A DNA stretch of 64,000 nt from Mediterraneibacter glycyrrhizinilyticus (GTDB taxonomy: Bacteria; Bacillota; Clostridia; Lachnospirales; Lachnospiraceae), in the NCBI RefSeq assembly GCF_015560805.1, contig NZ_JADMSO010000002.1, positions 186,001-250,000 of the forward strand. Direction: 5' to 3'. The notes under the pieces were generated by a model, which saw nothing but the letters and a program-made list of their open reading frames with translations, ran no database searches and was not told where the DNA came from. This document shows positions 2,331-63,795 of this stretch, one piece after another. The position numbers were made by a program, and so were the translations under genes. Position 1 is the stretch's first letter. Each line of letters starts with the position of its first letter.

Positions 2331-2337
2331 GAAGCAC

Positions 2338-2366
2338 TTGACCGGTCAGGGGGCATCCCTTATAAT
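2338..2366 (+). promoter_or_regulatory. Promoter of the stalk lipoprotein gene
   Basis: TTGACC (2338-2343) and TATAAT (2361-2366) are separated by 17 bp and lie 55 bp before the lipoprotein start. This near-consensus sigma-A type promoter begins inside the short gap after the SGNH gene, so the lipoprotein can be transcribed separately from the first MBOAT operon. Confidence 0.8.
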
Positions 2367-2420
2367 AGAAGCGTTGAAAAGCGAAAACTGAAGGATGTTT
2401 GAAACAAAGGAGTAGCAAAG

Positions 2421-3263: not shown

Positions 3264-3294
3264 AGACTTGAATTGACAGACTGGATGAAAAAGC

Positions 3295-3365
3295 TTGAGG
3301 GCGTTTCAGAAGTAAGCTGAGATATGGATTTTCCGGCGGCAGACTTTTGAGACACCCTCAATTTT
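3295..3365 (+). terminator. Long 19-bp-stem hairpin between lipoprotein and second MBOAT gene
   Basis: An inverted repeat of 19 bp (3295-3313 against 3343-3361, four wobble or mismatch positions) is followed by ATTTTA. It probably ends lipoprotein transcription or attenuates reading into the next operon. The right arm contains GGGTGTCTCAAAAG in reverse orientation, a pattern often seen at insertion-sequence ends, so a decayed mobile-element end is an alternative. Confidence 0.55.
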
Positions 3366-3382
3366 ACATAGGAGAAACGAAC

Positions 3383-4915: not shown

Positions 4916-4934
4916 GAAAGGAGGAGCAGACAAT

Positions 4935-6032: not shown

Positions 6033-6047
6033 AACACGGAATAGAAC

Positions 6048-6076
6048 TTGTCAAAAATTGTAGCAGGGAGTATACT
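6048..6076 (+). promoter_or_regulatory. Promoter of the transglutaminase-like repeat protein gene
   Basis: TTGTCA (6048-6053) and TATACT (6071-6076) are spaced by 17 bp, 37 bp before the ATG at 6114. The gene therefore appears to be its own transcription unit. Confidence 0.8.
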
Positions 6077-6113
6077 GATAAGTGATAAATTTGAAAGAAC
6101 ATGAGGTGGAAGC

Positions 6114-7499
6114 ATGAAAAAGAAAATGGCACTATTTCTGATCTTGTCAATGTGCATGCTGGGAACGGCGACCGTTCATGCGACAGAATCTGCGGATGGA
6201 AGTCAGACGGAGAACCAGAGTGACTCGCAGGATGCCGGAACGGAAAATCAGAAATCCGGATGGCAGGTTGAAGACGGCGGCTGGTACTATTATGCGGATG
6301 GGCAGAGGGCAACCGGATGGCTCTATCTTCCGGATGGAACTTATTATCTGGATGAGAGCACCGGAGCGATGCAGACCGGCTGGCTGAATGACGATGGAAC
6401 CTGGTATTATTTGCAGGAGAGCGGACGGCGTGCTTATGGCTGGATCAATCTTGACGCGTGGTACTATCTGGACTGGAATACCGGAGTGATGTTGACCGGG
6501 GAACAAGAGATCGACGGACAGACCTATTATCTGGACGCATCCGGCCGGATGTGCGAGGATAACTGGGTTCAGAGAGAAGACGGCTGGTATTACTATGGTC
6601 CGGGCGGAATGAAAAGTTATGGATGGCTTTTACGCTGGGATGGCTGGTATTATCTGGATACGGAGACCGGGCGGATGATGAACGGCGCACAGGAGATCGG
6701 CGGACAGGAGTACCGATTCAACGCAAGCGGACATATGTATGAGAATCAGTGGATCCAGGAAGACGGAAACTGGTATTTTTACAATGTCGGCGGTGCGAAA
6801 GCAAAGAACGGCTGGACATTGGACGGACAGACATGGTATTACATGGACGCAGAGGGAGTGATGCAGACCGGATGGCTGAATCTGAACGGAACCTGGTATT
6901 ATCTTCATTCCAATGGTGCGATGGCTTCCGCAACCTGGCTGCAGCTCGGTGGGGAATGGTATTATGTGACCGGGTCCGGCAATATGGTGACCGGTTGGAA
7001 CCAGATTAACGGAATGTGGTATTACATGTATGAGAATGGCGTGATGGCACATGATACAGTGATCGACGGATATGAGCTGGATTCTTCCGGTGCATGGAAT
7101 GCAGGTCTTGCTGCAGCCAATGCGGCAGCGCAGGGGGTGATCGCACTGGCAGGAAATGATCTTTACAGTTGCTATCGCTGGATCGTAGATAATTGTACTT
7201 ATCAGTCATTCTATGAAGAGACGCCTGCCGGATATACATGGCAGGAATGGCGTGCAGTCCAGATGTTCAATAACCGTTATGGCGACTGCCACAGCTTTGC
7301 GGCATTGTTCGGATATACGGCAAGAGCGCTTGGATATGACGCACGGATCATCTCGGGATATACAACATCTGTATCCGGCAAATGGGTGGATCATGGCTGG
7401 GTAGAGATCAACGGAGCGATTTATGATCCGGATCTGGAATATGAATTAGGATATAACTGCTTTGGACAATCTCCATTTTCTTACAAATATTATTTATAA
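6114..7499 (+). CDS. Secreted transglutaminase-like protein with choline-binding-type repeats
   Basis: This is a 461-residue exported protein. A signal peptide (about 1-23, ending VHA) leads into roughly a dozen aromatic/glycine repeats of the CW_binding type (about residues 47-325; units such as GTWYYLHSNGAMASATW). The C-terminal 110 residues form a transglutaminase-like domain with Cys392 in YGDCHSF, His427 in VDHGW and Asp438 in YDPD. The repeats should hold it on phosphocholine or another glycan ligand; the catalytic triad suggests a protease, cross-linking or amidase-like reaction on wall components. The nearby choline genes favour choline as ligand. An AGGTGG ribosome site precedes the ATG. 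Substrate unknown. Confidence 0.9.
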   Translation: MKKKMALFLILSMCMLGTATVHATESADGSQTENQSDSQDAGTENQKSGWQVEDGGWYYYADGQRATGWLYLPDGTYYLDESTGAMQTGWLNDDGTWYYLQESGRRAYGWINLDAWYYLDWNTGVMLTGEQEIDGQTYYLDASGRMCEDNWVQREDGWYYYGPGGMKSYGWLLRWDGWYYLDTETGRMMNGAQEIGGQEYRFNASGHMYENQWIQEDGNWYFYNVGGAKAKNGWTLDGQTWYYMDAEGVMQTGWLNLNGTWYYLHSNGAMASATWLQLGGEWYYVTGSGNMVTGWNQINGMWYYMYENGVMAHDTVIDGYELDSSGAWNAGLAAANAAAQGVIALAGNDLYSCYRWIVDNCTYQSFYEETPAGYTWQEWRAVQMFNNRYGDCHSFAALFGYTARALGYDARIISGYTTSVSGKWVDHGWVEINGAIYDPDLEYELGYNCFGQSPFSYKYYL

Positions 7500-7521
7500 G
7501 ATAAAAAAGGCGGAATGAGAA

Positions 7522-7557
7522 AAACGGGAAATCACTTGAAATCGTGATTTCCCGTTT
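7522..7557. terminator. Bidirectional terminator between convergent genes
   Basis: A perfect 14-bp inverted repeat (7522-7535 with 7544-7557, 8-base loop) lies between the converging genes ending at 7499 (+) and 7573 (-). A-rich sequence on the left gives a T-run for the minus strand. Confidence 0.8.
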
Positions 7558-7572
7558 CGCTTGTCAGGATCT

Positions 7573-8400
7573 TTACTGGATCCATGCGCCGGTATGGTCA
7601 AATGTATAGAGTGTGCCATCGATATTGTAAGTTCCGTTTGTATACAGGTAAGCGTTGGTCGGATCCAAGTAATACCAGGAATAGAAAGTTTCATCCCAGA
7701 TCCAGCCAAGATCCGCAGCGCCGGTTCCTGTAAAGTGATACCAGAATCCGGTATCGGTGTACGTCCATCCGGTTGCCATGCGCCCGGAGCCGTCAAAGTA
7801 GAAAATATATCCGTCGATCTCGTACAGGCCGCGGAGCATTTTGTTGTGGGATAAATAATACCAGGCATTGGAAGCATCGTCCCAGAGCCAGCCGTTGTAA
7901 GCGGTGCCGTCTGCATTGAAGAAACACCAGTCGCCGACTGTTGCCTGGGCGGATTCACTGTACCATGTTTCATAATACCATCCGGTTACCATCTGCCCGC
8001 TTGGAGTAAAGGCGTAACGTGTTCCGTTGATGTAGCGTACTCCGTCGCTGTACATATATCCATATTGTGGATCCAGGTAGTACCAGGCATTGGATGCCTT
8101 GTCCCAGAACCATCCGGTCTGCATTGCGCCGGAGTCTTTAAAATAGAACCAGTAATCGGAGAGGAAATGCCATCCGGTCACCATGTAGCCGTTTGCATCA
8201 AATGCATAAGCGGTTCCATCTACTTCATAAAGTCCGTTTTTGGGGTAGGTTCCGTCCGTACATTGGAACCACCATCCGTTCGGGGAATTGACCCAGTCTC
8301 CGCGTTTTCCGGAATCTGCTGCGGAAGCTGTCATAGACAGTCCGAATAAGAGACCCGTCAAAAGCAGGATCGGAAGTAAAGCCTTTAAAGATTTTTTCAT
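7573..8400 (-). CDS. Secreted repeat-only wall-binding protein, copy A
   Basis: This 275-residue minus-strand protein has a signal peptide (about 1-28; MKKSLKALLPILLLTGLLFG, then ending SAADS). The rest is aromatic/glycine repeats of the choline-binding type, with units such as NGWLWDDASNAWYYL. No catalytic domain is visible. It begins and ends almost identically to copy B (signal LLPxLLLTGLLFGLSMTASA; C-terminus SFDHTGAWIQ/TFDHTGAWIQ), so the two are paralogues. A GGAGGG ribosome site and a consensus promoter lie upstream. It may coat the wall, bridge polymer chains or compete for ligand; none of this can be decided from sequence. Confidence 0.88.
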   Translation of the reverse strand: MKKSLKALLPILLLTGLLFGLSMTASAADSGKRGDWVNSPNGWWFQCTDGTYPKNGLYEVDGTAYAFDANGYMVTGWHFLSDYWFYFKDSGAMQTGWFWDKASNAWYYLDPQYGYMYSDGVRYINGTRYAFTPSGQMVTGWYYETWYSESAQATVGDWCFFNADGTAYNGWLWDDASNAWYYLSHNKMLRGLYEIDGYIFYFDGSGRMATGWTYTDTGFWYHFTGTGAADLGWIWDETFYSWYYLDPTNAYLYTNGTYNIDGTLYTFDHTGAWIQ

Positions 8401-8442
8401 AAAATAGTCCCTCCTTTTCGTAAAAAACAGTTATTATATACC

Positions 8443-8471
8443 ATTATAGATGATAATCAGAAAATAAACAA
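8443..8471 (-). promoter_or_regulatory. Promoter of repeat protein copy A
   Basis: Read on the minus strand, TTGTTT (8471-8466) and TATAAT (8448-8443) are spaced by 17 bp, about 43 bp before the start codon. Confidence 0.75.
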
Positions 8472-8490
8472 TGAAGAATCAGAAAAAAGA

Positions 8491-8522
8491 TAAAAAGAAA
8501 GAGGACAAGATCTGCCCTCTTT
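8491..8522 (-). terminator. Terminator after repeat protein copy B
   Basis: A 7-bp stem AAAGAGG/CCTCTTT (8498-8504 with 8516-8522) is followed on the minus strand by a T-rich run, just past the end of the gene at 8559. Confidence 0.6.
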
Positions 8523-8558
8523 TGTATGTGTTGTATGAAATTAAGAAATTTCTGATTA

Positions 8559-9602
8559 TTACTGAATCCATGCGCCTGTATGATCGAAAGAGTATTCTAC
8601 GCCGTCGATCATATATGTTCCGTTAGAGTACATATTTCCATATTCGCCGAAGTAATAACATTTTCCGTCGATCCATTTCCAACTGTTCGTCAGAACTGCG
8701 CCGTTTCCATCTGTATAAGTCCAGAAGCCATATTCGCTGTCACCGATCCAGATCCATCCCTCTTGATTTACAAGATATCCATATCCGTCAAATGCGTAGA
8801 TATATCCGTCCGGTGCGGTGTAAGTGGTATTGTTGATCATGTAGCCATTATCGATGTAGTACCAGTGATTGTTTTCCCAGAGCCATCCGTTATATCCGGT
8901 ACCGTCGGCATTTGCAAGTAACCAAGTTCCGCCTTCGCCTTCGTAAGTTACCCAATACCATCCGCCATATACAAGATGTCCGGCAGCGTCGAATATCCAT
9001 GCGGTTTCATCGCCTGTTTCTTCATAGATACCCGGAGAAAAAGCAGTATTATTTACCATATAACTATCTGCGATGTAATACCACTGACCGCCGTCTAACA
9101 GCCATCCGTCATATTTAGTACCATTCTGATTACGGTACTGCCAGCTGCCTTCCCATTCATCTGTTGGATCGTAGTCATAGTAGTACCAGCCGCTTACCAT
9201 AGATCCGTCCGGTCTGAGGAGATAACTGGTCTCGTCGATCCAAAAGTAACCGTCATAGTACATAAATCCATATTCCGGATCCATGTAGTACCATGCACCG
9301 TCCCATACCCAGCCTTTCTGCATTGCGCCGGAGTTCAGATCAAAATAGTAGTAGTTATCGTATTCATCCTGCCACCATCCGGTCACCATGTATCCCCACT
9401 GATCGAAAGCATATTCTACACCGTCGATTTCGTAGAGACCATTGGACGGATACCAGTCATCTGTACACTGGAACCACCATCGGTCACCGTTCTGAACCCA
9501 GTAACCTTCTTTGGAGTCTTCTGCGGAAGCTGTCATGGAAAGTCCAAACAGTAGTCCGGTCAGAAGCAGTACCGGTAATAGAGCCTTAAAATGTTTTTTC
9601 AT
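8559..9602 (-). CDS. Secreted repeat-only wall-binding protein, copy B
   Basis: This 347-residue protein has a signal peptide (MKKHFKALLPVLLLTGLLFG, ending SAEDS) and then only aromatic/glycine wall-binding repeats, with units such as GAWYYMDPEYGFMYYDG and YDGWLLDGGQWYYI. It is richer in Trp, Tyr and Asp than copy A and some units are longer. The start at 9602 is set by GGAGGG directly upstream; the frame continues 16 codons further without a signal peptide. It is a paralogue of copy A in tandem, each with its own promoter and terminator. The ligand is probably the phosphocholine made by the adjoining operon (inference). No enzymatic domain is seen. Confidence 0.88.
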   Translation of the reverse strand: MKKHFKALLPVLLLTGLLFGLSMTASAEDSKEGYWVQNGDRWWFQCTDDWYPSNGLYEIDGVEYAFDQWGYMVTGWWQDEYDNYYYFDLNSGAMQKGWVWDGAWYYMDPEYGFMYYDGYFWIDETSYLLRPDGSMVSGWYYYDYDPTDEWEGSWQYRNQNGTKYDGWLLDGGQWYYIADSYMVNNTAFSPGIYEETGDETAWIFDAAGHLVYGGWYWVTYEGEGGTWLLANADGTGYNGWLWENNHWYYIDNGYMINNTTYTAPDGYIYAFDGYGYLVNQEGWIWIGDSEYGFWTYTDGNGAVLTNSWKWIDGKCYYFGEYGNMYSNGTYMIDGVEYSFDHTGAWIQ

Positions 9603-9638
9603 AAAAGTTCCCTCCTTTTCATAGGCTTTATCACCATT

Positions 9639-9667
9639 ATTATAGGACAAGTTTCATATATAGACAA
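9639..9667 (-). promoter_or_regulatory. Promoter of repeat protein copy B
   Basis: On the minus strand TTGTCT (9667-9662) and TATAAT (9644-9639) have a 17-bp spacer. It fires away from the choline operon, whose own promoter starts 51 bp to the right. Confidence 0.78.
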
Positions 9668-9717
9668 TAAAGAAGATGAAAAAAATAGGAAAAACTTCTA
9701 AAAATAGGATAAAATAC

Positions 9718-9746
9718 TTGCATTTTTGTAAAGAAACATGTAATAT
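9718..9746 (+). promoter_or_regulatory. Promoter of the choline operon
   Basis: TTGCAT (9718-9723) and TAATAT (9741-9746) are separated by 17 bp, 40 bp before the first gene of the choline operon. The divergent layout with 9639-9667 would allow shared control, but I see no clear operator palindrome. Confidence 0.65.
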
Positions 9747-9786
9747 CAATAGCAGGTTGTTCGTGAAAATAGAGAGGAGAGATTAC

Positions 9787-11532
9787 ATGAACATTCAAGA
9801 ATATGAATTGATGAACATCCTTGCGGATGAACGATATAAAAACCAAAGAGAACTGTCTGAAAAAACAGGATACTCTTTGGGAAAAATCAACAGTGCGCTG
9901 AAAACACTGGTTGAGACCGGATATCTGGATGGGCAGATGGGACTGACAAAAAAAGCCGGGAATGAGATGGAGGAAAAACGTCCGAAAAATGCAGTGATCC
10001 TGGCGGCGGGATTTGGAATGCGGATGGTCCCGATCAACGTGGAAGTTCCGAAAGGGATTTTGGAAGTCCATGGTGAACCTCTGATCGAACGTCTGATCCG
10101 ACAGCTTTTGGAAGCCGGTGTAAAGGAGATTGATATTGTCGTCGGCTTTATGAAAGAGCAGTATGAATATTTGATCGATAAATATGGAGTACACCTTGTG
10201 TTCAATAAAGATTACGCAGTGAAAAACAATCTGTATTCTTTAAAACAGGTTCTTCACAAGATCGGAAATACTTATATCATCCCGTGCGACGTATGGTGCA
10301 GGGAAAATCCATTTTCAGATCGGGAATGGTATTCCTGGTATATGGTAGGGGAAGAAAAGAGTGAGGAAAGTATTTTCCGGGTGAACCGGAAAAAGGAGCT
10401 TGTTCTGACAAAAGGGGAAGAAGCCGGAAACCGCATGATCGGGATCGCATATATTCTGAAAGAAGATGCGGGACATCTTAAGGAGCAGGCGGAAAAACTG
10501 TTTGGAAAGCGGGAGTACCGCCAGTCATTCTGGGAGGATGCTCTTGTGTGGGACGGGAAGATGCACTTACGGCCGAGAGAAGTGAAAGGAGACCTTGTTC
10601 ATGAGATCAACACACTGGAAGAACTTCGGGAACTGGATCATCATTCCAGTCAGTTGAATTCCGACATACTCTCACTGATCGGAGAGGTGCTGGACTGCAG
10701 GACAGAAGAGATCGTGGAGATCCGTGCATTGAAGAAAGGGATGACGAACCGGTCGTTTCAGTTTACCTGTCGGAGAAAACGCTATATTGCCCGTATTCCG
10801 GGGGAGGGAACCGGAAAAATGATCAACCGCAAGCAGGAATATGACGTCTATCAGGCGCTGAAAGGAAAAGAGATCGCAGATCCGGTGAGATACATTTCTC
10901 CTGAAAACGGATATAAGATCACGGAATTTGTGGACGCGAGAACCTGTGATCCGGATTCCGATGAAGATGTATCGCGTGCGATGAAATATCTGCGCGCGTT
11001 CCACGACTGCAGGCTGAAAGTCGATCATTCATTTGATCTGTTCGAGCAGATGGAGTATTATGAATCTCTTTGGAACGGTGAGAAATCCGTATTCAAAGAT
11101 TATCAGAAAGTCAAAGAGCAGATCTATGAATTGAAAGCGTATATTGACCGGCAGCCGAAAGAGATCGCGTTGACACACATTGACGCAAATCATGATAATT
11201 TTTTGTTTGCGGGAGAGAAAACATATCTGATCGACTGGGAATATGCGGGGATGCAGGATATCCATGTAGACGTAGCGATGTTCGCGATCTATGCGATGTA
11301 TGACCGGGAACGGATCGACTGGCTGATCGATCGTTATTTTGAGGGGGCGTGCCCGGAGAAAGTCCGTACGAAGATTTACTGTTATATTGCGGTCTGCGGA
11401 TTGTTGTGGAGCAACTGGTGTGAATATAAGCGTATGATGGGCGTGGAATTCGGAGAATATTCTCTGAGGCAGTATCGCTATGCGAAAGAATTTTACCGGC
11501 TTGCAAAGGAGAGAATGGAAGATGCAGAATGA
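9787..11532 (+). CDS. Winged-helix / LicC-like cytidylyltransferase / LicA-like choline kinase fusion
   Basis: This 581-residue protein holds three modules. Residues 1-60 are a winged helix-turn-helix of MarR type (RELSEKTGYSLGKINSALKTL is the helix-turn-helix). Residues 67-285 are a nucleotidyltransferase like LicC (AVILAAGFGMRMVPIN, PKGILEV, and the NNLYS motif). Residues 290-580 are a choline/ethanolamine-type kinase with the HxDxxxxN motif (His464, Asp466, Asn471) and LIDWEYAG (Asp483). Together they could turn choline into CDP-choline. ATG 9787 is chosen because GAGAGGAGAG precedes it. Its stop overlaps the next gene. The wing may act as a sensor or just as a dimerisation module; ethanolamine as substrate is possible. 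Confidence 0.9.
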   Translation: MNIQEYELMNILADERYKNQRELSEKTGYSLGKINSALKTLVETGYLDGQMGLTKKAGNEMEEKRPKNAVILAAGFGMRMVPINVEVPKGILEVHGEPLIERLIRQLLEAGVKEIDIVVGFMKEQYEYLIDKYGVHLVFNKDYAVKNNLYSLKQVLHKIGNTYIIPCDVWCRENPFSDREWYSWYMVGEEKSEESIFRVNRKKELVLTKGEEAGNRMIGIAYILKEDAGHLKEQAEKLFGKREYRQSFWEDALVWDGKMHLRPREVKGDLVHEINTLEELRELDHHSSQLNSDILSLIGEVLDCRTEEIVEIRALKKGMTNRSFQFTCRRKRYIARIPGEGTGKMINRKQEYDVYQALKGKEIADPVRYISPENGYKITEFVDARTCDPDSDEDVSRAMKYLRAFHDCRLKVDHSFDLFEQMEYYESLWNGEKSVFKDYQKVKEQIYELKAYIDRQPKEIALTHIDANHDNFLFAGEKTYLIDWEYAGMQDIHVDVAMFAIYAMYDRERIDWLIDRYFEGACPEKVRTKIYCYIAVCGLLWSNWCEYKRMMGVEFGEYSLRQYRYAKEFYRLAKERMEDAE

Positions 11533-12409
11533 TAAAAAATATAAAGTGGACAATGCGGTGATCATGGCGGCGGGAATGTCTACGCGGTTGGCGCCGCTCT
11601 CATACGAGACGCCGAAAGCGCTCTTGAATGTACACGGCGAGGTTCTGATCGAGCGGCAGATCCGGCAGCTTCGGGAAGCCGGGATTGAGGAAATTTTCGT
11701 CGTGACCGGGTACAAAAAAGAATGTTTTTCTTATTTGGAAGAAAAGTTTAAGGTGACGTTGGTTGAAAATCCATATTATGAAACAAGAAACAATCATTCC
11801 AGTTTGTATGTCGTTCGGGAACATTTGAAGAATACTTATATTTGCTGCGGCGACAATTATTTTCCGGAAAATGTCTTTCGGTCAGAGGAAGAAGATTCCT
11901 ACTATGCGACGGTTTTTGAAGCGGGAGAGACCGATGAGTGGTGCGTCTTTGCCGATGAGAACGGACGGATCCGGGAAGTGGAGATCGGCGGATGTGATCA
12001 GTGGGTCATGAAAGGACATGCATTTCTTGCGGAACCGTTCACCGCGAAACTTTGTGCTTATCTGGAAGAAGCGATGCGGAAAGAAGCTTCGGAAAATCTG
12101 TTCTGGGAAGATCTGTTTATCCTCCACAGGCAAGAGCTGGTCTTGTATCAGAAGAAGTTTGAAGATCAGAAAATCTGTGAATTTGACAGCTTGGAAGAAC
12201 TTCGGGCGTTTGATCCGAAGTACCTGGATCAGACGGGATCTGCGATTATGGAGAATCTGGCGGATATCTTACAATGTACGGAGGGAGAGATCCGGCAGAT
12301 TTATCCGCTCAAACAAGGAAATCAGGTCGTGGGGATCGAATTTGATTGCCGTGGCGTGAAATATCGATACGAATATGCGAAAAAACAGATCGGGAGGTAT
12401 GAAAAATGA
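11522..12409 (+). CDS. licC: LicC-like cholinephosphate cytidylyltransferase with a kinase N-lobe remnant
   Basis: This 295-residue enzyme would make CDP-choline from phosphocholine and CTP. The N-terminal 235 residues are a nucleotidyltransferase with AVIMAAGMSTRLAPLS, PKALLNVHGE and the LicC-typical RNNHSSLYVV. The last 55 residues (QCTEGEIRQIYPLKQGNQVV and on) match the start of the kinase module of the preceding protein (DCRTEEIVEIRALKKGMTNR), but the catalytic lobe is absent. It therefore looks like a duplicate of the fusion that lost both its winged helix and its kinase core. ATG 11522 lies inside the end of the previous gene, and the 3' end overlaps the transporter gene. Confidence 0.88.
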   Translation: MQNDKKYKVDNAVIMAAGMSTRLAPLSYETPKALLNVHGEVLIERQIRQLREAGIEEIFVVTGYKKECFSYLEEKFKVTLVENPYYETRNNHSSLYVVREHLKNTYICCGDNYFPENVFRSEEEDSYYATVFEAGETDEWCVFADENGRIREVEIGGCDQWVMKGHAFLAEPFTAKLCAYLEEAMRKEASENLFWEDLFILHRQELVLYQKKFEDQKICEFDSLEELRAFDPKYLDQTGSAIMENLADILQCTEGEIRQIYPLKQGNQVVGIEFDCRGVKYRYEYAKKQIGRYEK

Positions 12410-13944
12410 AACCGGAAAAACTGGAAAAGGGACTGATGAAAAAGCTGGATCTTGTGACGATGACCGTACCGCTGATCGGGATCGTTGTACTTTGTGCGTT
12501 GTTTATGATCCTACCGGAGCAGTCCACGAATGTGCTTGGAAAGATCCGGGGATTTTTGGGAGACGATCTGGGAATTTATTATGTGTTGATCGCAGCGGGA
12601 GCCTTGATCTGCAGTATGTATATGGCATTTTCCCGTTACGGGAAAATCAGGCTTGGAAATGTGGAAAAACCGGAATATTCCGATTACAAGTGGGGAGCGA
12701 TGATCTTTACGTCTACAATGGCGGCAGATATCTTGTTTTATTCGTTATGTGAATGGGCGTTGTATGCGAATGAACCGCAGATTGAAGCGATGGGCGGGAT
12801 CCAGAAATGGGCGTCAACGTATCCGTTGTTTCACTGGGGACCGACTGCATGGAGTTTTTACATTGTACTTGCAGTCGCGTTTGGATTTATGCTTCATGTC
12901 AGAGGCAGGGAAAAACAAAAATTTTCGGAAGCCTGCCGCCCGCTGCTCGGCAATCGTGTTGACGGCTGGCTTGGAAAAGCGATCGATCTGATCGCGGTGC
13001 TGGCGCTTTTGGCTGGAACGGCAACGACATTTTCCATGGCAACGCCGCTGTTGTCCGCGGCGCTCGGCGAGGTATTTCATATACCGGCAGGCGTGACGCT
13101 TACGATCATGATCCTGCTGTTGATCGCAGTCGTGTATACGTTGACGGTATGGTTTGGAATGAAAGGGGTTGCGCGTCTAGCAACCGGATGTACTTATCTT
13201 TTCTTTGCACTGCTTGTCTATTTTCTTGTGGGCGGCGGAGAGATGCGGTATATTCTGGAAACCGGAGTGTCTTCGATCGGGAATCTGGCACAGAATTTTA
13301 TCGGCATGAGTACATGGACGGATCCGCTCCGTGAAAATTCTTTCGTACAGAACTGGACGATCTTCTACTGGGCTTATTGGATGGCGTGGTGTGTGGCAAA
13401 TCCGTTTTTTATCGGAAAAATCAGCAAAGGTCGGACGATCCGCAATACGGTACTCGGCGGATATGGCTGGGGATTGGCAGGAACATTTACGTCCTTTATC
13501 GTGCTCGGAAATTATGGATTGTCACAGCAGATGAAAGGAACGATTGACATAGCAGGCGAGATCGCCGCGGGAGGGGATGTTTCCGCTGCGATTTTGGAAA
13601 TTTTCCATACGCTGCCGCTGCCGGAGCTGGGACTTTTGATCCTTGTTGTGACGATGGTCGCTTTCTATGCGACAACGTTTGACGCGCTGACGATGGTTGT
13701 TTCTTCTTATTCTTATAAGAAGCTGGATGTGGATCAGGAACCGGATAAACGTGTGCGTACATTCTGGTCTGTTTTGTTCATTCTGTTCCCGATCGCATTG
13801 ATCTTTTCCGAAAATTCGATCAGCAGTCTGCAGTCGGTTGCGATCATCGCAGCATTTCCGATCGGTTTGATCGTCATTGCGATCGTTGCAAGCTTCTTCA
13901 AGGATGCGCGGAAATATCTGGAAAGTGGATCGGAGAAAAAATGA
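12406..13944 (+). CDS. BCCT family choline/betaine transporter
   Basis: This 512-residue, about 12-segment transporter belongs to the betaine/choline/carnitine family. Conserved stretches include the Trp-rich FYWAYWMAWCVANPFFIGKISKGRT block, written here in part as WAYWMAWCVANPF, and the FHWGPTAW motif. It starts with an ATGA overlap on the cytidylyltransferase stop, so it is the third gene of the choline operon and probably brings in choline for it. In pneumococcus that job is done by LicB, an unrelated permease, so this is a functional replacement. Osmoprotectant uptake is an alternative role, made less likely by the operon. Confidence 0.93.
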   Translation: MKPEKLEKGLMKKLDLVTMTVPLIGIVVLCALFMILPEQSTNVLGKIRGFLGDDLGIYYVLIAAGALICSMYMAFSRYGKIRLGNVEKPEYSDYKWGAMIFTSTMAADILFYSLCEWALYANEPQIEAMGGIQKWASTYPLFHWGPTAWSFYIVLAVAFGFMLHVRGREKQKFSEACRPLLGNRVDGWLGKAIDLIAVLALLAGTATTFSMATPLLSAALGEVFHIPAGVTLTIMILLLIAVVYTLTVWFGMKGVARLATGCTYLFFALLVYFLVGGGEMRYILETGVSSIGNLAQNFIGMSTWTDPLRENSFVQNWTIFYWAYWMAWCVANPFFIGKISKGRTIRNTVLGGYGWGLAGTFTSFIVLGNYGLSQQMKGTIDIAGEIAAGGDVSAAILEIFHTLPLPELGLLILVVTMVAFYATTFDALTMVVSSYSYKKLDVDQEPDKRVRTFWSVLFILFPIALIFSENSISSLQSVAIIAAFPIGLIVIAIVASFFKDARKYLESGSEKK

Positions 13945-13973
13945 TTGAAAACGACAAAGGGATTCGTTATAAT
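13945..13973 (+). promoter_or_regulatory. Promoter of the GH25 muramidase gene
   Basis: TTGAAA (13945-13950) begins directly after the transporter stop and TATAAT (13968-13973) follows after exactly 17 bp. The start codon is 92 bp downstream, leaving a leader of roughly 85 bases. Confidence 0.82.
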
Positions 13974-14064
13974 ACATAGGAATCTAAAAACAGGAATTGT
14001 TGTTTGGCGGGGAGCGCTTTCAGACGACAATTTCGGTACGAATGAACAAGAGAGGAGAGAACGA

Positions 14065-15726
14065 ATGATCAAAAAAGGGACCCTTTTTTCGGGAATCATC
14101 GGAGGCTTGTGCCTTGGCATGGCAGTGGCGTCTGCTTCACTGCTTCCGGTACATGCAGCGGAAGAGGAAGATCATACTGCCGGTGTTTCGATGGGCAAAG
14201 AAGCCGATGAGGAAATCAGCACTTATGCGCGGGCGCGTGTGGAAGCTGGATGGAAGCAGGATGCAAAGGGCTGGTGGTATCAGGATGAAGACGGAGGCTG
14301 GGCACAGAGAGCCTGGCGGCAGATTGACGGAAAATGGTATTATTTTGCCAGTGACGGTTATTGGAGAGAAGATGCCGATGCACATGAGAATACGTTGAAA
14401 GGTATCGACGTTTCCGAGTGGCAGGTGGATATTGACTGGAATGCGGTGAAGCAGGATGGTTATGATTTTGCAATCATCCGCGGTGGTTACAGTTATACCG
14501 ATCCGAAGACCGGAAAGTATGAGCATGTTGTGGACAAGTATTTCGAGCAGAATATGGCAGGAGCCAATGCGGCGGGGATTCCGGTCGGTGTGTACATATA
14601 CAGTAAAGCGACGAATGAAGCACAGGCTGTGGAAGACGCGAAGTTTTTGATCGAAGAATCGACGGGCTACCTTGTATCTTACCCGCTTGTGATCGACATG
14701 GAAGATTCTTCTCAGGTGAATCTTGGGAAAACCGCGCTTGGAAAGATCGCGAAAGCGTTCAGTGACGAAGTGAAGTCGGCAGGGTATACGCCGATGATCT
14801 ACACAAATGAAAACTGGTATAAAAATGTGGTGGACATGTCCTATGTCAGCGATGTGGAACATTGGGTTGCGGCTTACGGTATCGAACCGGATGACAGCAT
14901 CCCGCGCGGGATCTGGCAGTGCAGCAGTACCGGTCGTGTGAAAGGGATCGACGGAAACGTTGATATTAACTTCGGTTACAAAGATTACACAACGATCGTG
15001 ACGCCTCGGACAGAACCGGCAGCAGGTTATGGAAAACCGGAAGTTGGCGGAGAGTGGAGACTTGATGGCGGCGGCTGGTGGTATCATTGCTATGACGGAA
15101 CATATCCGAAAAATGAATGGAAAGAGATCAATGGTCAAACTTACCGGTTTGATGGAAACGGATATATGCTGACCGGTTGGCAGTATATTGAGAACGAATG
15201 GTATTACATGAACAGCTCCGGCGCCCGTCTGAGCGGATGCTGGCTGGAATTGGGCGGCATCTGGTATTATCTGAAAGAGGACGGCAAGATGGCAGTCGGC
15301 TGGCAGCTTGTCGGAAATACATGGTATTACATGTATCCGTCGGGAATGATGGCGACAGGTTGGCAGTTTATCGGGGATTCATGGTTCTATCTGTATCCGT
15401 CGGGAGCCATGGCAAGCGGCTGGTTCCTGGACGGAAATACATGGTATTATCTGGATCCGGGCGGATGGATGAGAACCGGCTGGGTATTGGTTGGCGACAG
15501 CTGGTATTACATGTATCCGTCAGGAATGATGGCGACCGGCTGGGTATTGGTCGGAGATACATGGTATTATCTGACACCGGGTAACGGAGCGATGGCGACA
15601 GGCTGGCTCCTGCTTGGAGACACCTGGTATTATCTGACACCGGGGAACGGTGCGATGGTCACGGGAACACAGGTGATCGACGGTGTGGAATATACATTTT
15701 TCAGTGACGGAAGATGTGACTGGTAA
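14065..15726 (+). CDS. Secreted GH25 muramidase (lysozyme) with choline-binding-type repeats
   Basis: This 553-residue exported wall hydrolase has a signal peptide (1-31), two wall-binding repeats (about 62-100), a GH25 domain (about 112-305) and about nine more repeats (320-545). In the GH25 domain GIDVSEWQ gives Asp115 and VIDMEDS gives Asp211 and Glu213, the expected acidic residues. Repeats such as DTWYYLTPGNGAMATGWLLL are nearly identical at DNA level from 15300 to 15660. The layout is that of phage and pneumococcal choline-binding lysozymes such as Cpl-1 and LytC. ATG 14065 follows GAGAGGAGAG. It probably remodels phosphocholine-bearing wall; repeats on both sides of the catalytic domain are less usual. 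Confidence 0.95.
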   Translation: MIKKGTLFSGIIGGLCLGMAVASASLLPVHAAEEEDHTAGVSMGKEADEEISTYARARVEAGWKQDAKGWWYQDEDGGWAQRAWRQIDGKWYYFASDGYWREDADAHENTLKGIDVSEWQVDIDWNAVKQDGYDFAIIRGGYSYTDPKTGKYEHVVDKYFEQNMAGANAAGIPVGVYIYSKATNEAQAVEDAKFLIEESTGYLVSYPLVIDMEDSSQVNLGKTALGKIAKAFSDEVKSAGYTPMIYTNENWYKNVVDMSYVSDVEHWVAAYGIEPDDSIPRGIWQCSSTGRVKGIDGNVDINFGYKDYTTIVTPRTEPAAGYGKPEVGGEWRLDGGGWWYHCYDGTYPKNEWKEINGQTYRFDGNGYMLTGWQYIENEWYYMNSSGARLSGCWLELGGIWYYLKEDGKMAVGWQLVGNTWYYMYPSGMMATGWQFIGDSWFYLYPSGAMASGWFLDGNTWYYLDPGGWMRTGWVLVGDSWYYMYPSGMMATGWVLVGDTWYYLTPGNGAMATGWLLLGDTWYYLTPGNGAMVTGTQVIDGVEYTFFSDGRCDW

Positions 15727-15735
15727 ATAAAAGAG

Positions 15736-15795
15736 AAAGACTTTTCAGACTGGATCTTGAGAAAAGAAGGTTCCGGATGAAGAGTCTTTTTGTTT
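15736..15795 (+). terminator. Terminator after the GH25 gene
   Basis: An imperfect inverted repeat starting AAAGACTTTTCAG (15736) pairs with the segment ending GAGTCTTT (15790) and runs into a T-rich tail. It ends just downstream of the GH25 stop. Confidence 0.65.
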
Positions 15796-15825
15796 TATCG
15801 CATGGGAAATCTTTTTCATGATTAC

Positions 15826-15854
15826 TTTACAGGATGGCAGGATTGCGGTATACT
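15826..15854 (+). promoter_or_regulatory. Promoter of the flippase-LicD operon
   Basis: TTTACA (15826-15831) and TATACT (15849-15854) have a 17-bp spacer and lie 59 bp before the flippase start. Confidence 0.7.
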
Positions 15855-15912
15855 AGCCGGAGATGTCGGTTGCAGTATGCCGGCATAGGAAAAAAGAAAA
15901 AGGATCGACAGT

Positions 15913-17181
15913 ATGAAATCGATAAAAGAACAGCCGGGCGAACGCTCGATTTATATATGGAATATTTGCGGAAGTATTGTGAATGCATTGTTTTCTGTTG
16001 TTGCATTGATGATCGTGACCCGTTTCTTGGATGACCGCGAGGCAGACATTTTCAGCATTGCCTGGACGATCAGTCAGCTGATGGCAACCGTAGGAACGTT
16101 TCAGATCCGTGTCTATCAGGCGACGGACGTGCAGGGGACGTTTTTGTTCCGGCACTATCTGATCTTCCGTATCGTAACGGTGGCGGCAATGATCGTAAGC
16201 AGCGCCGCGTATATCGTAGTCCGCGGTTATACAGGGGAAAAGGCGCTGGTCGTGCTTGTTGTCTGCCTGTTCCGTGCAGTGGATTCTCTGGCGGATGTGT
16301 ATGAGGGATGGTTTCAGCAGAAAGAACGCCTGGATCTGTCCGGGAAAGCGCTGACTTATCGGGTGATCCTTGCGGCGGCAGGATTTGCATGCGGATTGAT
16401 CTTTACGAAAAATCTGCTGGTTTCCTGTGCGATCCTGTTTGGCGTTTATCTGTTTTGCTTTGTTATCTACGATCTCCGGTATCATATGGCAGTGGAACGA
16501 TTTCGGGATGTGCCGGACGGGCGTGACCGGAGCGGCTGGTTTGGAAACATGTTCCGGGAGGGACTTCCATTATTTATCAATGCGTTTTTGATCATGTCGA
16601 TCTTGAATGAGCCGAAGATGGTGATCGATACGGCGATCGCCAATGGAGAGATGAGTGCGGGGATCCAGACGGTGTTCAATATTTTGTTTATGCCGGCATC
16701 GGTTCTGAATCTGGCATATATCGTGTTCCGTCCGATGATCACGCAGATGGCGATCGTATGGAACCGAGGGGAAAAACGTCGTTTTTTGAAAATTTTGGGA
16801 AAGATCATCGGGTATCTGCTTGCGATCAGCATTGTATTGATGATCGGAAGCGCACTGCTCGGAATCCCGGTTCTGTCTATTGTCTATGCGGTGGATCTGT
16901 CAGCTTATAAAAGTGAACTTCTGGTGATCATGGTGGGCGGCTGTGTCTATACGTTTGCGGCGGTACTGGATAATGCGCTTGTTGTACTGCGCAGACAGTA
17001 TGTGCTTGTGATCGCTTATGCGCTGACATGGATCTATATCATGCTGACAGCCGCATGGCTGGTAGGAGAATGGGCTGTGATGGGCGCATCCCTTGCCTAT
17101 TGTACGGCAATGGCAGTTTATCTGCTTTTAACGGCAGTGTTGTTTGTGAGCAGTTATCGGAGAAAGTCAGGTGAAGTATGA
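15913..17181 (+). CDS. Polysaccharide / teichoic-acid flippase (Wzx/TacF-like)
   Basis: This 422-residue protein has about 12 hydrophobic segments and the general pattern of the MOP flippase superfamily, with an N-terminal WNICGSIVNALFSVVALMIV. Its role would be to turn a lipid-linked repeat unit to the outer face. It overlaps the LicD gene by 4 bp (ATGA). In pneumococcus TacF works together with choline decoration, so the gene order flippase-LicD next to licC suggests a TacF-like job. That assignment rests on context; the sequence alone supports only a polysaccharide flippase. Confidence 0.8.
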   Translation: MKSIKEQPGERSIYIWNICGSIVNALFSVVALMIVTRFLDDREADIFSIAWTISQLMATVGTFQIRVYQATDVQGTFLFRHYLIFRIVTVAAMIVSSAAYIVVRGYTGEKALVVLVVCLFRAVDSLADVYEGWFQQKERLDLSGKALTYRVILAAAGFACGLIFTKNLLVSCAILFGVYLFCFVIYDLRYHMAVERFRDVPDGRDRSGWFGNMFREGLPLFINAFLIMSILNEPKMVIDTAIANGEMSAGIQTVFNILFMPASVLNLAYIVFRPMITQMAIVWNRGEKRRFLKILGKIIGYLLAISIVLMIGSALLGIPVLSIVYAVDLSAYKSELLVIMVGGCVYTFAAVLDNALVVLRRQYVLVIAYALTWIYIMLTAAWLVGEWAVMGASLAYCTAMAVYLLLTAVLFVSSYRRKSGEV

Positions 17182-18059
17182 AAAAATATACAGTGAACAA
17201 ACCGTATGAAAAAGAAGTGCTGGACAAGCTGCATCGTGTGCAGGTTGAGATCCTGCGTGACTTTGACGCGGTATGTGAAAAACATCAGCTGCATTATTTT
17301 GCAGTGTACGGCACTGCGATCGGGGCAGTGCGGCACGGCGGATTTATTCCGTGGGATGACGATGTGGATGTGGCGATGCTCAGAGAAGACTACGAAAAGT
17401 TTTTGCAGATCTTTCCGGAGGAGATGGCAGAACGGTATCAGCTGATGACCCCGGAGCTGGATGGAGATTATACATGTACCGTGACGCATCTGCAGCGGAA
17501 ACATACGAAATTTATTTCAGAGGTGACGGAAAATCTTCCCTATGAACAGTGTATCGATCTGGATATCTTTCCGTTGGATGAGGTGGCGGAAGAAGCGCGT
17601 GCACAGAAGAAGCAGGGAAGAATGGCGGTATTCTGGGGGCGGATGTTGTTCCTGTGCGGTTCCGGACAGCCGGTGATCGCAGCGGACGGTCTTGTCGGAA
17701 ACCTGATGGCGGCAGCCTGTGCCTGCGTGCATGCCGTGCTGAAATTATTCCGTGTTTCACCGAGAAGTCTGTATCGGAAATTTGTACGGACGGCGACCTG
17801 CTATAACGGAGGCGGCGGAGAATATGTGACGTCCTTTGAATATAACGGCTGTCTGAAAGACAAAATAAAAAAGAAAGATCTGTTTCCGCTTGAGAAAGTT
17901 CCGTTTGAAGATATGGAACTGTATATTCCGGCAAACAATCATGAATTTCTGACACATGTGTACGGCGACTATATGAAACTGCCTCCGGAAAATGAGCGTG
18001 TGAACCATATGCCGAAAGTGATCCAGTTTGAGGGAGAGGCGCCGATCTACAACCAATAA
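17178..18059 (+). CDS. licD: LicD family phosphocholine transferase
   Basis: This 293-residue protein of the LicD (nucleotidyltransferase-fold) family would move phosphocholine from CDP-choline to a sugar on the growing polymer. The signature is YGTAIGAVRHGGFIPWDDDV (residues 44-63) with the metal-binding acidic cluster Asp60, Asp61, Asp62 and Asp64. Its position behind a flippase and near two licC-like genes makes phosphocholine more likely than another phospho-alcohol. An alternative is transfer of phosphoribitol or phosphoglycerol, which some LicD/fukutin relatives perform. A second, partial LicD gene lies at the right window edge. Confidence 0.9.
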   Translation: MKKYTVNKPYEKEVLDKLHRVQVEILRDFDAVCEKHQLHYFAVYGTAIGAVRHGGFIPWDDDVDVAMLREDYEKFLQIFPEEMAERYQLMTPELDGDYTCTVTHLQRKHTKFISEVTENLPYEQCIDLDIFPLDEVAEEARAQKKQGRMAVFWGRMLFLCGSGQPVIAADGLVGNLMAAACACVHAVLKLFRVSPRSLYRKFVRTATCYNGGGGEYVTSFEYNGCLKDKIKKKDLFPLEKVPFEDMELYIPANNHEFLTHVYGDYMKLPPENERVNHMPKVIQFEGEAPIYNQ

Positions 18060-18088
18060 ACGGCAGAAAACAACAGGAGAAGAAGGAA

Positions 18089-19264
18089 ATGAAACGACGA
18101 TACTGTATTTTTGCGGCGCAGTATTTTCCGCATCTTGGCGGTGTAGAGCGCTATACATACAATCTTGCGAAAAAGCTGACCGAGGCGGGGGATGAGGTGA
18201 CGGTAGTGACTTCGAATGTACAGCGGATCGCGTCGTACGAGAAGATGGAGGGAATCACGGTATACCGGATGCCGTGCATCAACTTGTTGGACGGACGTTA
18301 TCCGGTCTTGAAATTTAACGGTGATTTTCGCAAGATCCACCATATTTTACGGGAGAAGAATTTTGATTTCGTGATCGTGAACACGCGGTTTTACATTCAT
18401 TCCCTGTATGGGCAGTGGTTTGCATGGAGCAAAAAGATCCCGGTCATCACGATCGATCATGGAAGCAGCCATCTTTCCGTGAACAATAAGATGTGGGATG
18501 CCATCGGCGGTGTTTATGAGCATATGATCACAAAAGTGGGACAGTTATTCTGCAAAGATTATTATGGGGTTTCAAAAGCCTGTGTGGAATGGCTTTGGCA
18601 TTTCCATATCAAGGCGAGAGGGGTTCTTTATAATTCGGTGGATCTGGAGGAAATTGAACGTCTCTTAACGGCAGGAGAGAGAACATACCGCAGTCGGTTT
18701 CAGATTCCGGAAGATGCGACGGTGATCACATTTACCGGAAGATTGTTACCGGAAAAAGGAATCCCGCAGCTTTTGGATGCGATGGACATCCTTGCGAAAG
18801 AGAACCCGAACCTATATCTTTGGGTCGCAGGGGACGGAGATTTGGAGGAACTGGTGAATGCGCGGCAGAACGAGCATGTGATCCCGCTTGGCAGACTTCC
18901 GTTTGAGGAGATCATCACCATGCTTTCGGAAAGCGATATTTTCTGCCTGCCGTCATTCTCCGAGGGCTTTTCCACTTCCATTTTGGAAGCGATCGCATGC
19001 CGCTGTTATGTGGTGACGACAAAACGCGGCGGTGCAAAAGAGACGTTCCCGACGGATGACTATGGAATGGTGATCGAGGACAACGAGACGACGAGGCTGA
19101 CCGACGCGCTGCGCAGGGCGGTTTCGATGGGGGAAGCGCGGGATGCGGCGGCGGAGCTGTCATATGAACGGCTGAAAGCACATTATACATGGGATATCGT
19201 ATCTGCACAGGTGAGACAGCTTTGTCAGGAAAAAACAACAGGAAAACCGAGGAAAAACAGTTGA
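18089..19264 (+). CDS. Glycosyltransferase family 4
   Basis: This 391-residue retaining glycosyltransferase has a GT-B fold. The N-terminal half begins with FAAQYFPHLGGVERYTYNLA; the C-terminal half carries FTGRLLPEKGIPQLLDAM and the EX7E-type block PSFSEGFSTSILEAIACRCY. It should act in the cytoplasm to add a sugar to the lipid-linked unit flipped by the product of 15913-17181. A GGAGAAGAAGG ribosome site precedes the ATG. Its stop overlaps the next gene start by 4 bases (TTGA). Donor and acceptor cannot be predicted. Confidence 0.9.
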   Translation: MKRRYCIFAAQYFPHLGGVERYTYNLAKKLTEAGDEVTVVTSNVQRIASYEKMEGITVYRMPCINLLDGRYPVLKFNGDFRKIHHILREKNFDFVIVNTRFYIHSLYGQWFAWSKKIPVITIDHGSSHLSVNNKMWDAIGGVYEHMITKVGQLFCKDYYGVSKACVEWLWHFHIKARGVLYNSVDLEEIERLLTAGERTYRSRFQIPEDATVITFTGRLLPEKGIPQLLDAMDILAKENPNLYLWVAGDGDLEELVNARQNEHVIPLGRLPFEEIITMLSESDIFCLPSFSEGFSTSILEAIACRCYVVTTKRGGAKETFPTDDYGMVIEDNETTRLTDALRRAVSMGEARDAAAELSYERLKAHYTWDIVSAQVRQLCQEKTTGKPRKNS

Positions 19265-19950
19265 AGAAGTTAATTATCATACCAGCATACAATGAAGAAG
19301 CAAATATCGTAAAAACAGTGGAGTCCATCGAGAGGGATGCGGTTGGATTTGATTATATTGTTATTAACGACTGTTCCACAGACCGGACGAAAGAAATTTG
19401 TGAGGAGCATGGATTTCATTATGTGGATCTCCCGATCAATCTGGGGATCGGAGGAGCTGTCCAGACCGGCTATAAATATGCATGGGAGAACGGGTATGAC
19501 ATGGCAGTGCAGGTGGATGGCGACGGGCAGCACGATCCGGAATTTCTGGAATTGATGGCAGAATATCTGGAAATCCATCAGGTCGATATGGTCATTGGCT
19601 CCCGATTTATCGAGAAACAGGGATTTCAGTCATCCGGGATGCGCCGGGTGGGGATCCGGTTCTTTTCCGGGCTGATACGGCTGATGACCGGAAAGACGAT
19701 CACCGATCCGACTTCCGGACTGCGTATGGCGGGACGGAATGTGATCGAATTATTTTCAAAGGATTATCCAAGGGATTATCCGGAACCGGAAAGTGTTGTG
19801 GCGATCCTCCGGAAAGGTCTGAAAGTAGCGGAGGTGCCGGTGATCATGCGGGAACGCGAGGGCGGTGTTTCCTCGATTTCCATGAAGAAATCAGTGTATT
19901 ATATGGTCAAAGTGACGTTGGCGATCTTGATCGAACGGATTCGTCGATAA
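19261..19950 (+). CDS. Glycosyltransferase family 2, dolichol/polyprenyl-phosphate sugar synthase-like
   Basis: This 229-residue GT-A enzyme begins KKLIIIPAYNEEANIVKTVE and has the metal-binding motif QVDGDGQHDP, typical of polyprenyl-phosphate mannose or glucose synthases. The TTG start at 19261 overlaps the previous stop, with a GAGG-type site just upstream; the open frame reaches further up but without homology. It is followed by a small DUF2304 membrane protein, a pairing often seen for such enzymes. It probably makes a polyprenyl-phosphate-linked sugar used outside the membrane, or modifies the unit directly. Confidence 0.85.
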   Translation: MKKLIIIPAYNEEANIVKTVESIERDAVGFDYIVINDCSTDRTKEICEEHGFHYVDLPINLGIGGAVQTGYKYAWENGYDMAVQVDGDGQHDPEFLELMAEYLEIHQVDMVIGSRFIEKQGFQSSGMRRVGIRFFSGLIRLMTGKTITDPTSGLRMAGRNVIELFSKDYPRDYPEPESVVAILRKGLKVAEVPVIMREREGGVSSISMKKSVYYMVKVTLAILIERIRR

Positions 19951-19965
19951 GGAAAGGATGGGAAG

Positions 19966-20379
19966 ATGGATATTAAAATTCAGATCATCGTAGCTGCAGG
20001 CGTTTTGTTAGGGCTGGCTGCTATTATCAATATGATTCGAAAAAAAAGTCTGGAACTGCAGTATGCGCTTGCCTGGCTGTTTGTCGGAGGAGGGATTCTT
20101 GTATTGGACTGTTTTCCGCAGATCCTGACATGGCTTGCCCATGAAGCCGGGGTTGCAAGTCCGGTCAATATGCTGTTTTTCCTTGGATTTTGCTTCTCTC
20201 TGGTGATCATTTTCACATTGACGGTGACGGTATCCCGGATGTCGACTCAGATCAAAGAACTGACACAGGCACAGGCGCTTCAGAAAGAAAGCAGGGAACG
20301 AAAAGAAGACGCAGGAATGAAGAACAACGTCAAGAACAAAGCCAAGAATGACGCAGATGTGAAGAACAGCGTGCAATAG
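19966..20379 (+). CDS. DUF2304 small membrane protein
   Basis: This 137-residue protein has three hydrophobic segments (about 5-22, 33-52 and 67-88) followed by a basic, charged tail of about 40 residues with Lys/Asn/Asp repeats. The arrangement and LQYALAWLFVGGGILVL fit the DUF2304 family, whose members usually sit next to polyprenyl-phosphate glycosyltransferases. It follows the GT2 gene by 15 bp with GGAAAGGATGGG as the ribosome site. A role in supporting or anchoring that enzyme, or in moving the lipid-linked sugar, is inferred. Confidence 0.75.
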   Translation: MDIKIQIIVAAGVLLGLAAIINMIRKKSLELQYALAWLFVGGGILVLDCFPQILTWLAHEAGVASPVNMLFFLGFCFSLVIIFTLTVTVSRMSTQIKELTQAQALQKESRERKEDAGMKNNVKNKAKNDADVKNSVQ

Positions 20380-20408
20380 TTGATTTTAAGCCGTAGAAAT
20401 GGTATAAT
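20380..20408 (+). promoter_or_regulatory. Promoter of the rhamnose/ABC export operon
   Basis: TTGATT (20380-20385) and TATAAT (20403-20408) are separated by 17 bp, 32 bp before the rfbB start. It begins right after the DUF2304 stop and separates the choline-linked operon from the rhamnan operon. Confidence 0.82.
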
Positions 20409-20440
20409 AGAAAATAATATGCAATGGAGGAAGTGCAATT

Positions 20441-39658: not shown

Positions 39659-39690
39659 GGGCAGCACTGCGGAGGCGGTGCTGCCCTTTT
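39659..39690 (+). terminator. Terminator before glmS
   Basis: GGGCAGCACTGC pairs with GCGGTGCTGCCC (one G-U pair, 4-base loop) followed by TTTT, 16 bp after the poly-aspartate protein gene. Confidence 0.85.
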
Positions 39691-39773
39691 CGAATTTATG
39701 GAGGCATGAAACAGAGCGGTGCATCGCATACGGAACTGTTTTACATGACAGAAAGAAAAGGGAGGAACAGATT

Positions 39774-63738: not shown

Positions 63739-63795
63739 AAAACAGAAAACACAACGTGTATGCTGGATGTGAAAAAATGGGAGAGGATACAAAGG

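Follow-up and report, generated by a model that had tools for sequence, protein, structure and literature searches.

A putative regulator-choline kinase fusion and a conserved promoter element in a predicted phosphocholine-decoration locus of Mediterraneibacter glycyrrhizinilyticus

The genes at 6114-20379 of a 64,000-nucleotide stretch of the Mediterraneibacter glycyrrhizinilyticus genome (contig NZ_JADMSO010000002.1, positions 186,001 to 250,000; hereafter the window, part of contig C21 of a 3.0 Mb genome in 28 contigs) probably make and use a phosphocholine coat, with choline import and activation under the control of the protein LicCA via a promoter element. LicCA (Pfam domains HTH_24, NTP_transf_3 and Choline_kinase/APH, encoded at 9787-11532) consists of a winged helix-turn-helix (HTH) domain, a divergent nucleotidyltransferase domain (NT*) and a choline kinase, and its AlphaFold model (predicted local distance difference test, pLDDT, 89.2) is consistent with three domains. 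The protein is best read as a trigger enzyme similar to NadR that would govern choline import and activation, its DNA binding being predicted from sequence.

The BCCT transporter would import choline, the kinase part of LicCA would convert it to phosphocholine, the separate cytidylyltransferase LicC2 would make CDP-choline, LicD would place phosphocholine onto the lipid-linked glycan that the nearby glycosyltransferases assemble, the MOP flippase would export the decorated glycan, and the repeat proteins, a lysozyme among them, would dock on the phosphocholine coat. The winged HTH of LicCA would bind GTTCAYRAAAA here, or TGTTCA-N24-TGAAC in single-copy relatives, and LicCA would thereby repress or tune its own operon and the BCCT gene. 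The preliminary description of this DNA proposed phosphocholine decoration with writer, importer and reader functions, a proposal well supported by conserved substrate and catalytic residues, choline-type Trp repeats and genome co-occurrence; its gene list for 6114-20379 was borne out by Pfam, NCBIfam and PDB searches and by models (Table 1). It also listed choline kinase and cytidylyltransferase modules: both domains are present, but there is only one choline kinase, the second cytidylyltransferase (LicC2) having no kinase match and ending in a stretch similar, by eye, to the N-terminus of the kinase, and the choline kinase protein also bears the DNA-binding domain, which had been missed.

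Relatives of LicCA (individual loci, genomes and contigs are numbered below with L, G and C) fall mainly into two types. Type II comprises the window and 38 relatives with the order HTH-NT*-LicA and the motifs MRMVPIN, PCD[IV]WC and EIN[TS]; type I is a single-copy HTH-LicC-LicA fusion, of which 18 were fetched (16 of the 17 strong matches at 38-42% identity, all except G244, plus the weaker G119 and G217), several of these loci having been picked because repeat matches beside the gene were already seen. Two more distant fusions (L085 and L086) belong to neither type. The HTH residues Q20, R21, G32 and N35 do not vary across an alignment of 22 sequences, of which 15 belong to type II and 7 to type I.

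The sequence GTTCAYRAAAA (in the window, GTTCGTGAAAA) precedes the LicCA start in 38 of the 39 type II loci, compared with 0.69 loci expected from order-1 resampling, the pattern having been defined, like that of type I below, after inspection of the sequences. It lies at -28 in 30 loci as annotated, and the other upstream conservation is mainly at the -10 box, around the ribosome site and at the start. The sole type II locus without the element (L039) encodes a fusion that also lacks the HTH domain. That the element, usually 28 nt from the ATG, is a coding N-terminal extension was rejected because in-frame stop codons occur in the last 30 nt upstream of the ATG in 12 of the 38 loci; a known RNA was likewise rejected, as an Rfam search of 5900-20500 gave no match at the gathering score.

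Type I loci have a different arrangement, with TGTTCA downstream of the -10 box followed, after 24 bases, by an inverted TGAAC; this was found at 17 of 18 loci (spacing N24 in 16 and N25 in 1), with 0.057 expected. When the 18 type I genomes were scanned in full with ATGTTCA-N24-TGAAC, 44 strand hits resulted, versus 4 for the reversed pattern; they represent 37 distinct sites, of which 14 are at LicCA, 13 immediately precede a BCCT gene and 10 lie elsewhere. A BCCT gene was found in 16 of these genomes (a single one per genome at 1e-40), G132 and G185 being the two without, and 14 of the 16 carry the operator, versus 0.007 expected for the 15 genes parsed, in a test that, unlike the two patterns, was not defined after inspection; the 14 include that of G072, where the site is of the N25 form and its second half overlaps the BCCT start codon. 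In G131, BCCT directly follows LicCA. None of the 14 operator-bearing BCCT genes adjoins LicCA: eight are on different contigs, and six are on the same contig at distances from about 4 kb (G016) to 5 Mb. Because LicCA and a distant BCCT gene have the operator in common, the transporter appears to be tied to choline activation, and the fused HTH domain would be the natural regulator. In the window, LicCA and BCCT are both behind one element.

A wider regulon in the window genome was considered and rejected: a relaxed element, TGTTCRYRAAAA, has 15 matches versus 7 for the reversed pattern, and only the LicCA site shows the promoter-element-ribosome-site arrangement, three others (L104, L105 and L106) being near gene starts in other arrangements and the remainder falling within open frames or antisense to them. 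Within the window the type I form has no match, and no choline-binding-type protein gene was seen under the type I operator among the 37 sites. One of the ten other type I sites (G046:6331610, L168, contig C1) is a TGTTCA-N24-TGAAC in a promoter-like position before a methyltransferase-like gene; among the other nine, one or two related GC-rich sites (G111) are intergenic and the others looked coding or are unassigned.

The division of labour between LicCA and LicC2 is indicated by comparison with pneumococcal LicC (1jyk), which LicC2 matches at E 7.5e-42 and LicCA at 3e-32 in PDB sequence searches. Matches to 6pd1, a cytidylyltransferase of the 2-aminoethylphosphonate type known as PntC, are weaker (1.9e-7 for LicC2 and 1.1e-8 for LicCA), and no phosphonate gene was seen by eye among the listed open reading frames (ORFs), which beyond 27900 are only those of at least 230 aa; decoration with 2-aminoethylphosphonate was ruled against on these two grounds. 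Among the LicC positions Asp107, Trp136 and the acid at 218, which we take to be functional, the Glu-Trp and Asp are conserved in all 36 aligned LicC2 companions, and the type I fusions retain Glu-Trp in 18 of 18 with Glu (17) or Asp (1) at the acid position. Unlike LicC2, the fused nucleotidyltransferase domain of type II does not keep the compared LicC residues: Trp136 is missing from NT* in 39 of 39 (38 aligned, L046 by eye), and the acid is replaced by Asn in 38 of 39 (Asp in L027). All 39 also have a separate canonical LicC, adjacent in 35, within the same 873-residue chain in one (L046), and elsewhere in the genome in three (L019, where Tyr replaces the Trp of LicC, L021 and L027). The simplest history would be that the separate LicC took over catalysis and NT* then changed under a new constraint, most likely toward nucleotide or CDP-choline sensing or coupling.

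That NT* was retired from catalysis and kept as the CTP- or CDP-choline-sensing middle of a regulator-kinase that gauges choline flux is a tentative proposal, with somewhat less than an even chance of being correct. It is also possible, if rather doubtful, that NT* is an active nucleotidyltransferase for another phosphate: its motifs LAAGxGMRMVPIN, PCD[IV]WC and EIN[TS] show strong conservation, and in GlmU-type enzymes the metal can be bound by Asp together with Asn, but in the 39 genomes NT* occurs only alongside a separate LicC, and no second substrate gene besides BCCT was seen to be fixed nearby among the relatives of window proteins, which were those sought. In five loci (L015, L034, L037, L042 and L043), a third ORF with kinase similarity follows LicC2 and may complete a second LicC-LicA pair.

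In the kinase part of LicCA, 9 of the 11 LicA choline and catalytic residues compared (Thr29, Asp176, Asn181, Asp194, Glu196, Tyr197, Trp251, Trp254 and Tyr268) are conserved in an alignment compared by eye with the residues named in PMC4364537. The four repeat proteins of the window, each with a signal-like N-terminus, point to the same ligand. Repeats that bind choline do so by stacking of their first two aromatic residues, mostly Trp, on the ligand, and the repeat family also includes glucan binders and clostridial toxins (PMC4929436). Trp occupies the second aromatic position in 22 of the 28 parsed repeats of the four window proteins (8/10, 3/5 and 3/5 for those beginning at 6114, 7573 and 8559, and 8/8 parsed for the GH25 lysozyme). 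Among Lic-positive samples it does so in 419 of 796 repeats (236/386 in type II loci, 26/40 in other window-genome proteins, 27/31 in further Lic-positive proteins), compared with 9 of 104 in a small Lic-negative, repeat-rich sample of 8 proteins from 10 of the 23 such genera (those with coordinates among the matches listed) plus 7 proteins of G257, in which only LicCA was searched; these counts cover only proteins with at least four parsed repeats, and repeats are not independent. In 13 of the 18 type I loci, a repeat-protein ORF on the strand of LicCA opens no more than 301 nt after it, a rate biased by the choice of several loci for an adjacency already seen; writer and reader may thus be co-transcribed there. 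The genomes G257 and G254, from two species of one genus, one with LicCA and the other without, have secreted repeat proteins in common (L153-L159) in which Val/Lys and other residues replace the choline Trp, and which perhaps bind another ligand.

Among 250 genomes, one per genus of the family with the window genome included, 51 have a LicCA relative (E up to 1e-60, some of them kinase-only) and 67 are repeat-rich (at least 10 PF19127 matches among the matches listed). Both features occur in 35 genera, LicCA only in 16, repeats only in 32 and neither in 167 (Fisher p about 1e-12, ignoring phylogeny), so that 35 of the 51 LicCA genomes are repeat-rich versus 32 of the 199 others. For LicCA matches beyond 1e-100, 31 of 34 genomes are repeat-rich, the exceptions being G192, G098 and G047. 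Within the genus both are patchy, LicCA being found in 2 and the repeats in 3 of 12 species. The 38 named relatives include Blautia, Dorea, Faecalicatena, Mediterraneibacter, Ruminococcus, Fusicatenibacter, Oscillospiraceae, one Streptococcus and one Granulicatella, and this patchy spread fits transfer of the LicCA group.

The preliminary description held that synthesis, export and reader genes are gathered in one place and may travel as a unit. The first statement is too strong, as CW-repeat matches are also found on contigs C3, C11, C22, C23 and C26, and the second fails among the 38 related loci, where LicD and the flippase are also present, giving likeness to the full cassette, only in L022 and more loosely in L038. 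It is mainly the kinase-LicC-BCCT group that is conserved across relatives: BCCT is encoded in at least 29 of the fetched stretches, at least 25 of these also having a separate LicC2, and a protein similar to the window repeat proteins is encoded in at least 16, these counts being lower bounds as several contigs are short.

Several observations weigh against the interpretation offered here. In the kinase, Glu213 and Val178 of LicA (numbered as in PMC4364537) are replaced by Tyr and Asn, respectively, and the similarity of the BCCT protein to PDB sequences does not separate choline from other substrates. The regulatory part is weakened by L061, which has one half-site only, by the BCCT gene of G178, before which no operator was seen, and by the window itself, where the only other match to the element (41150) lies inside an ORF (39678-41600) and neither element form is found upstream of the four choline-binding-type protein genes, which gives no sign of co-regulation of the readers there. 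As for the repeats, only 128 of 315 are of the Trp type in the type I samples, and only 2 of 24 in G254, a LicCA-positive member of the same genus; the protein beginning at 6114 scores 98 bits with the NCBIfam glucan-binding repeat model (below the 147.7 cut-off), and the GH25 repeats match toxins and glucosyltransferases in the PDB as well as choline-binding proteins. The co-occurrence figures take no account of phylogeny and include kinase-only matches among the 51, and with LicCA or LicC2 as the marker there are 29 marked genomes that are not repeat-rich and 23 repeat-rich genomes that are unmarked.

The last of these figures, the G254 counterexample, the sub-threshold glucan-repeat match and the presence of glucan binders in the family (PMC4929436) would all suit repeat proteins that bind glucan beside lic genes whose proximity is incidental, but the frequency of choline-type Trp in the window repeats versus the Lic-negative samples, and the repeat ORFs that follow LicCA in type I loci (with the bias noted above), make this distinctly unlikely. 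A head group of another amino-alcohol, such as phosphoethanolamine, is very unlikely: the Pfam kinase model spans choline and ethanolamine, and LicD-type transferases may use other CDP-linked groups, but the aromatic quaternary-amine pocket of LicA (described in PMC4364537) and the LicC Trp are conserved, the BCCT carrier has its operator in common with LicCA, and the repeats are of the choline Trp type. It is unlikely, too, that some other, unlinked transcription factor recognises the element while the fused HTH domain acts otherwise, for example in protein contacts. Such a factor would accommodate L047, which has the element without an HTH_24 match at 0.001, and the binding of the element by the HTH domain is itself read from sequence; against it, element and fused HTH occur together in loci of both types, those of Streptococcus (L032) and Granulicatella (L036) among them, the element is absent where the HTH is absent (L039) and at the divergent L085, which has no HTH_24 match, and four HTH residues are invariant. 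Control of choline import and activation by LicCA, in the service of a phosphocholine coat, is the interpretation retained.

NadR, a regulator that is also an enzyme, combines an HTH domain with nicotinamide mononucleotide adenylyltransferase and ribosylnicotinamide kinase. LicCA resembles it in the order HTH-nucleotidyltransferase-kinase within one chain and in its predicted control of its own substrate's transporter, the element being common to its own gene and the transporter gene in type I relatives; it differs in being built from other domain families for another pathway, with choline in place of nicotinamide, and in being known from sequence alone. The licCA gene of Treponema, a LicC-LicA fusion with a role in phosphatidylcholine synthesis that did not turn up in the literature search, likewise places cytidylyltransferase and choline kinase on one chain, but the present system differs in its HTH domain, operator, separate LicC and surface use. 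With the pneumococcal lic1/lic2 system the locus has in common the predicted LicA, LicC and LicD functions, here including the choline kinase pocket and catalytic residues, LicC2 as the LicC, and LicD, and it has a candidate MOP flippase that may fill the role of pneumococcal TacF, together with choline-binding repeats with two Trp and a GH25 lysozyme among the readers. Unlike the pneumococcal system, it has LicA fused to HTH and nucleotidyltransferase domains, a BCCT importer, predicted self-regulation through an operator, and four repeat proteins within the locus. The contrast first drawn with scattered pneumococcal lic genes was overstated, as these form one operon region with two transcription units according to PMC4364537. 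Among open-licence papers, no description was found of the HTH-LicC-LicA fusion with its element or of choline decoration in Lachnospiraceae.

Table 1. Features of the predicted phosphocholine-decoration locus (window coordinates)
Feature	Position	Strand	Basis
Secreted choline-binding-repeat protein with C-terminal transglutaminase-like domain	6114..7499	+	Pfam Choline_bind_3 (7 stretches), Choline_bind_1 and Transglut_core
Secreted repeat-only choline-binding-type protein	7573..8400	-	Pfam; signal-like N-terminus by eye
Secreted repeat-only choline-binding-type protein	8559..9602	-	Pfam; signal-like N-terminus by eye; ATG at 9602, longest ORF to 9650
Possible LicCA operon promoter, TTGCAT-17-TAATAT	9718..9746	+	By-eye reading; absent from promoter-scan list
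Conserved operator-like element GTTCGTGAAAA, between -10 and ribosome-binding site	9759..9769	+	Element conservation across type II loci
LicCA: winged HTH, divergent nucleotidyltransferase (NT*) and choline kinase	9787..11532	+	Pfam, PDB sequences, alignments, model; ORF open from 9676
LicC2: canonical CTP:phosphocholine cytidylyltransferase with stump resembling kinase N-terminus	11522..12409	+	1jyk, E 7.5e-42; LicC residues conserved
BCCT transporter, predicted choline importer	12406..13944	+	Pfam BCCT, 432 bits; PDB matches; operator in common with LicCA in relatives
Secreted GH25 lysozyme with choline-binding repeats	14065..15726	+	Pfam GH25 and 7 Choline_bind_1 stretches; candidate promoter 13945-13973
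MOP-superfamily flippase candidate (TacF/Wzx-like role)	15913..17181	+	Model and Foldseek; candidate promoter 15826-15854
LicD-family phosphocholine transferase candidate	17178..18059	+	PF04991, 151.6 bits
GT4 glycosyltransferase	18089..19264	+	Pfam
GT2 glycosyltransferase	19240..19950	+	Pfam
DUF2304 membrane protein	19966..20379	+	Pfam

The LicCA, LicC2 and BCCT genes overlap end to end and are read as a single operon. The locus as a whole probably comprises several transcription units, because the GH25 and flippase genes have candidate promoters of their own, in a scan that gave about as many candidates as shuffled sequence. The flippase candidate has no Pfam match, and no MOP flippase appears among its PDB sequence matches; its assignment comes from the fold of its model (pLDDT 86.8), which Foldseek matches to MOP-fold structures such as WzxE, MurJ and MATE. 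DUF2304 proteins often occur alongside GT2 enzymes. The genome's only other LicD match (249865-250548, G000:C21; window 63739-64000 onward) lies some 46 kb further downstream and belongs to a polysaccharide cluster that runs on beyond the end of the window. Just upstream of the locus (38-6032) are two pairs of an MBOAT acyltransferase and a partner without a Pfam match (DltD/AlgJ-like by eye), which could possibly O-acylate the same polymer; a related pair adjoins the lic cassette of Dorea phocaeensis (L012). A lipoprotein-like ORF (2421-3263) with a long Ala-Gln-Glu repeat and a Pro-rich tail has no Pfam match.

Host C-reactive protein and natural antibody both recognise phosphocholine, which is best known from airway pathogens. 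In LicCA an enzyme domain seems to have taken on a different role once another gene had assumed its original task, and the fusion with its element offers a concrete, inexpensive way to ask under which conditions these commensals would acquire a choline coat. If the proposed scheme is true, gut Lachnospiraceae and their relatives would set choline import and surface phosphocholine by gauging choline flux.

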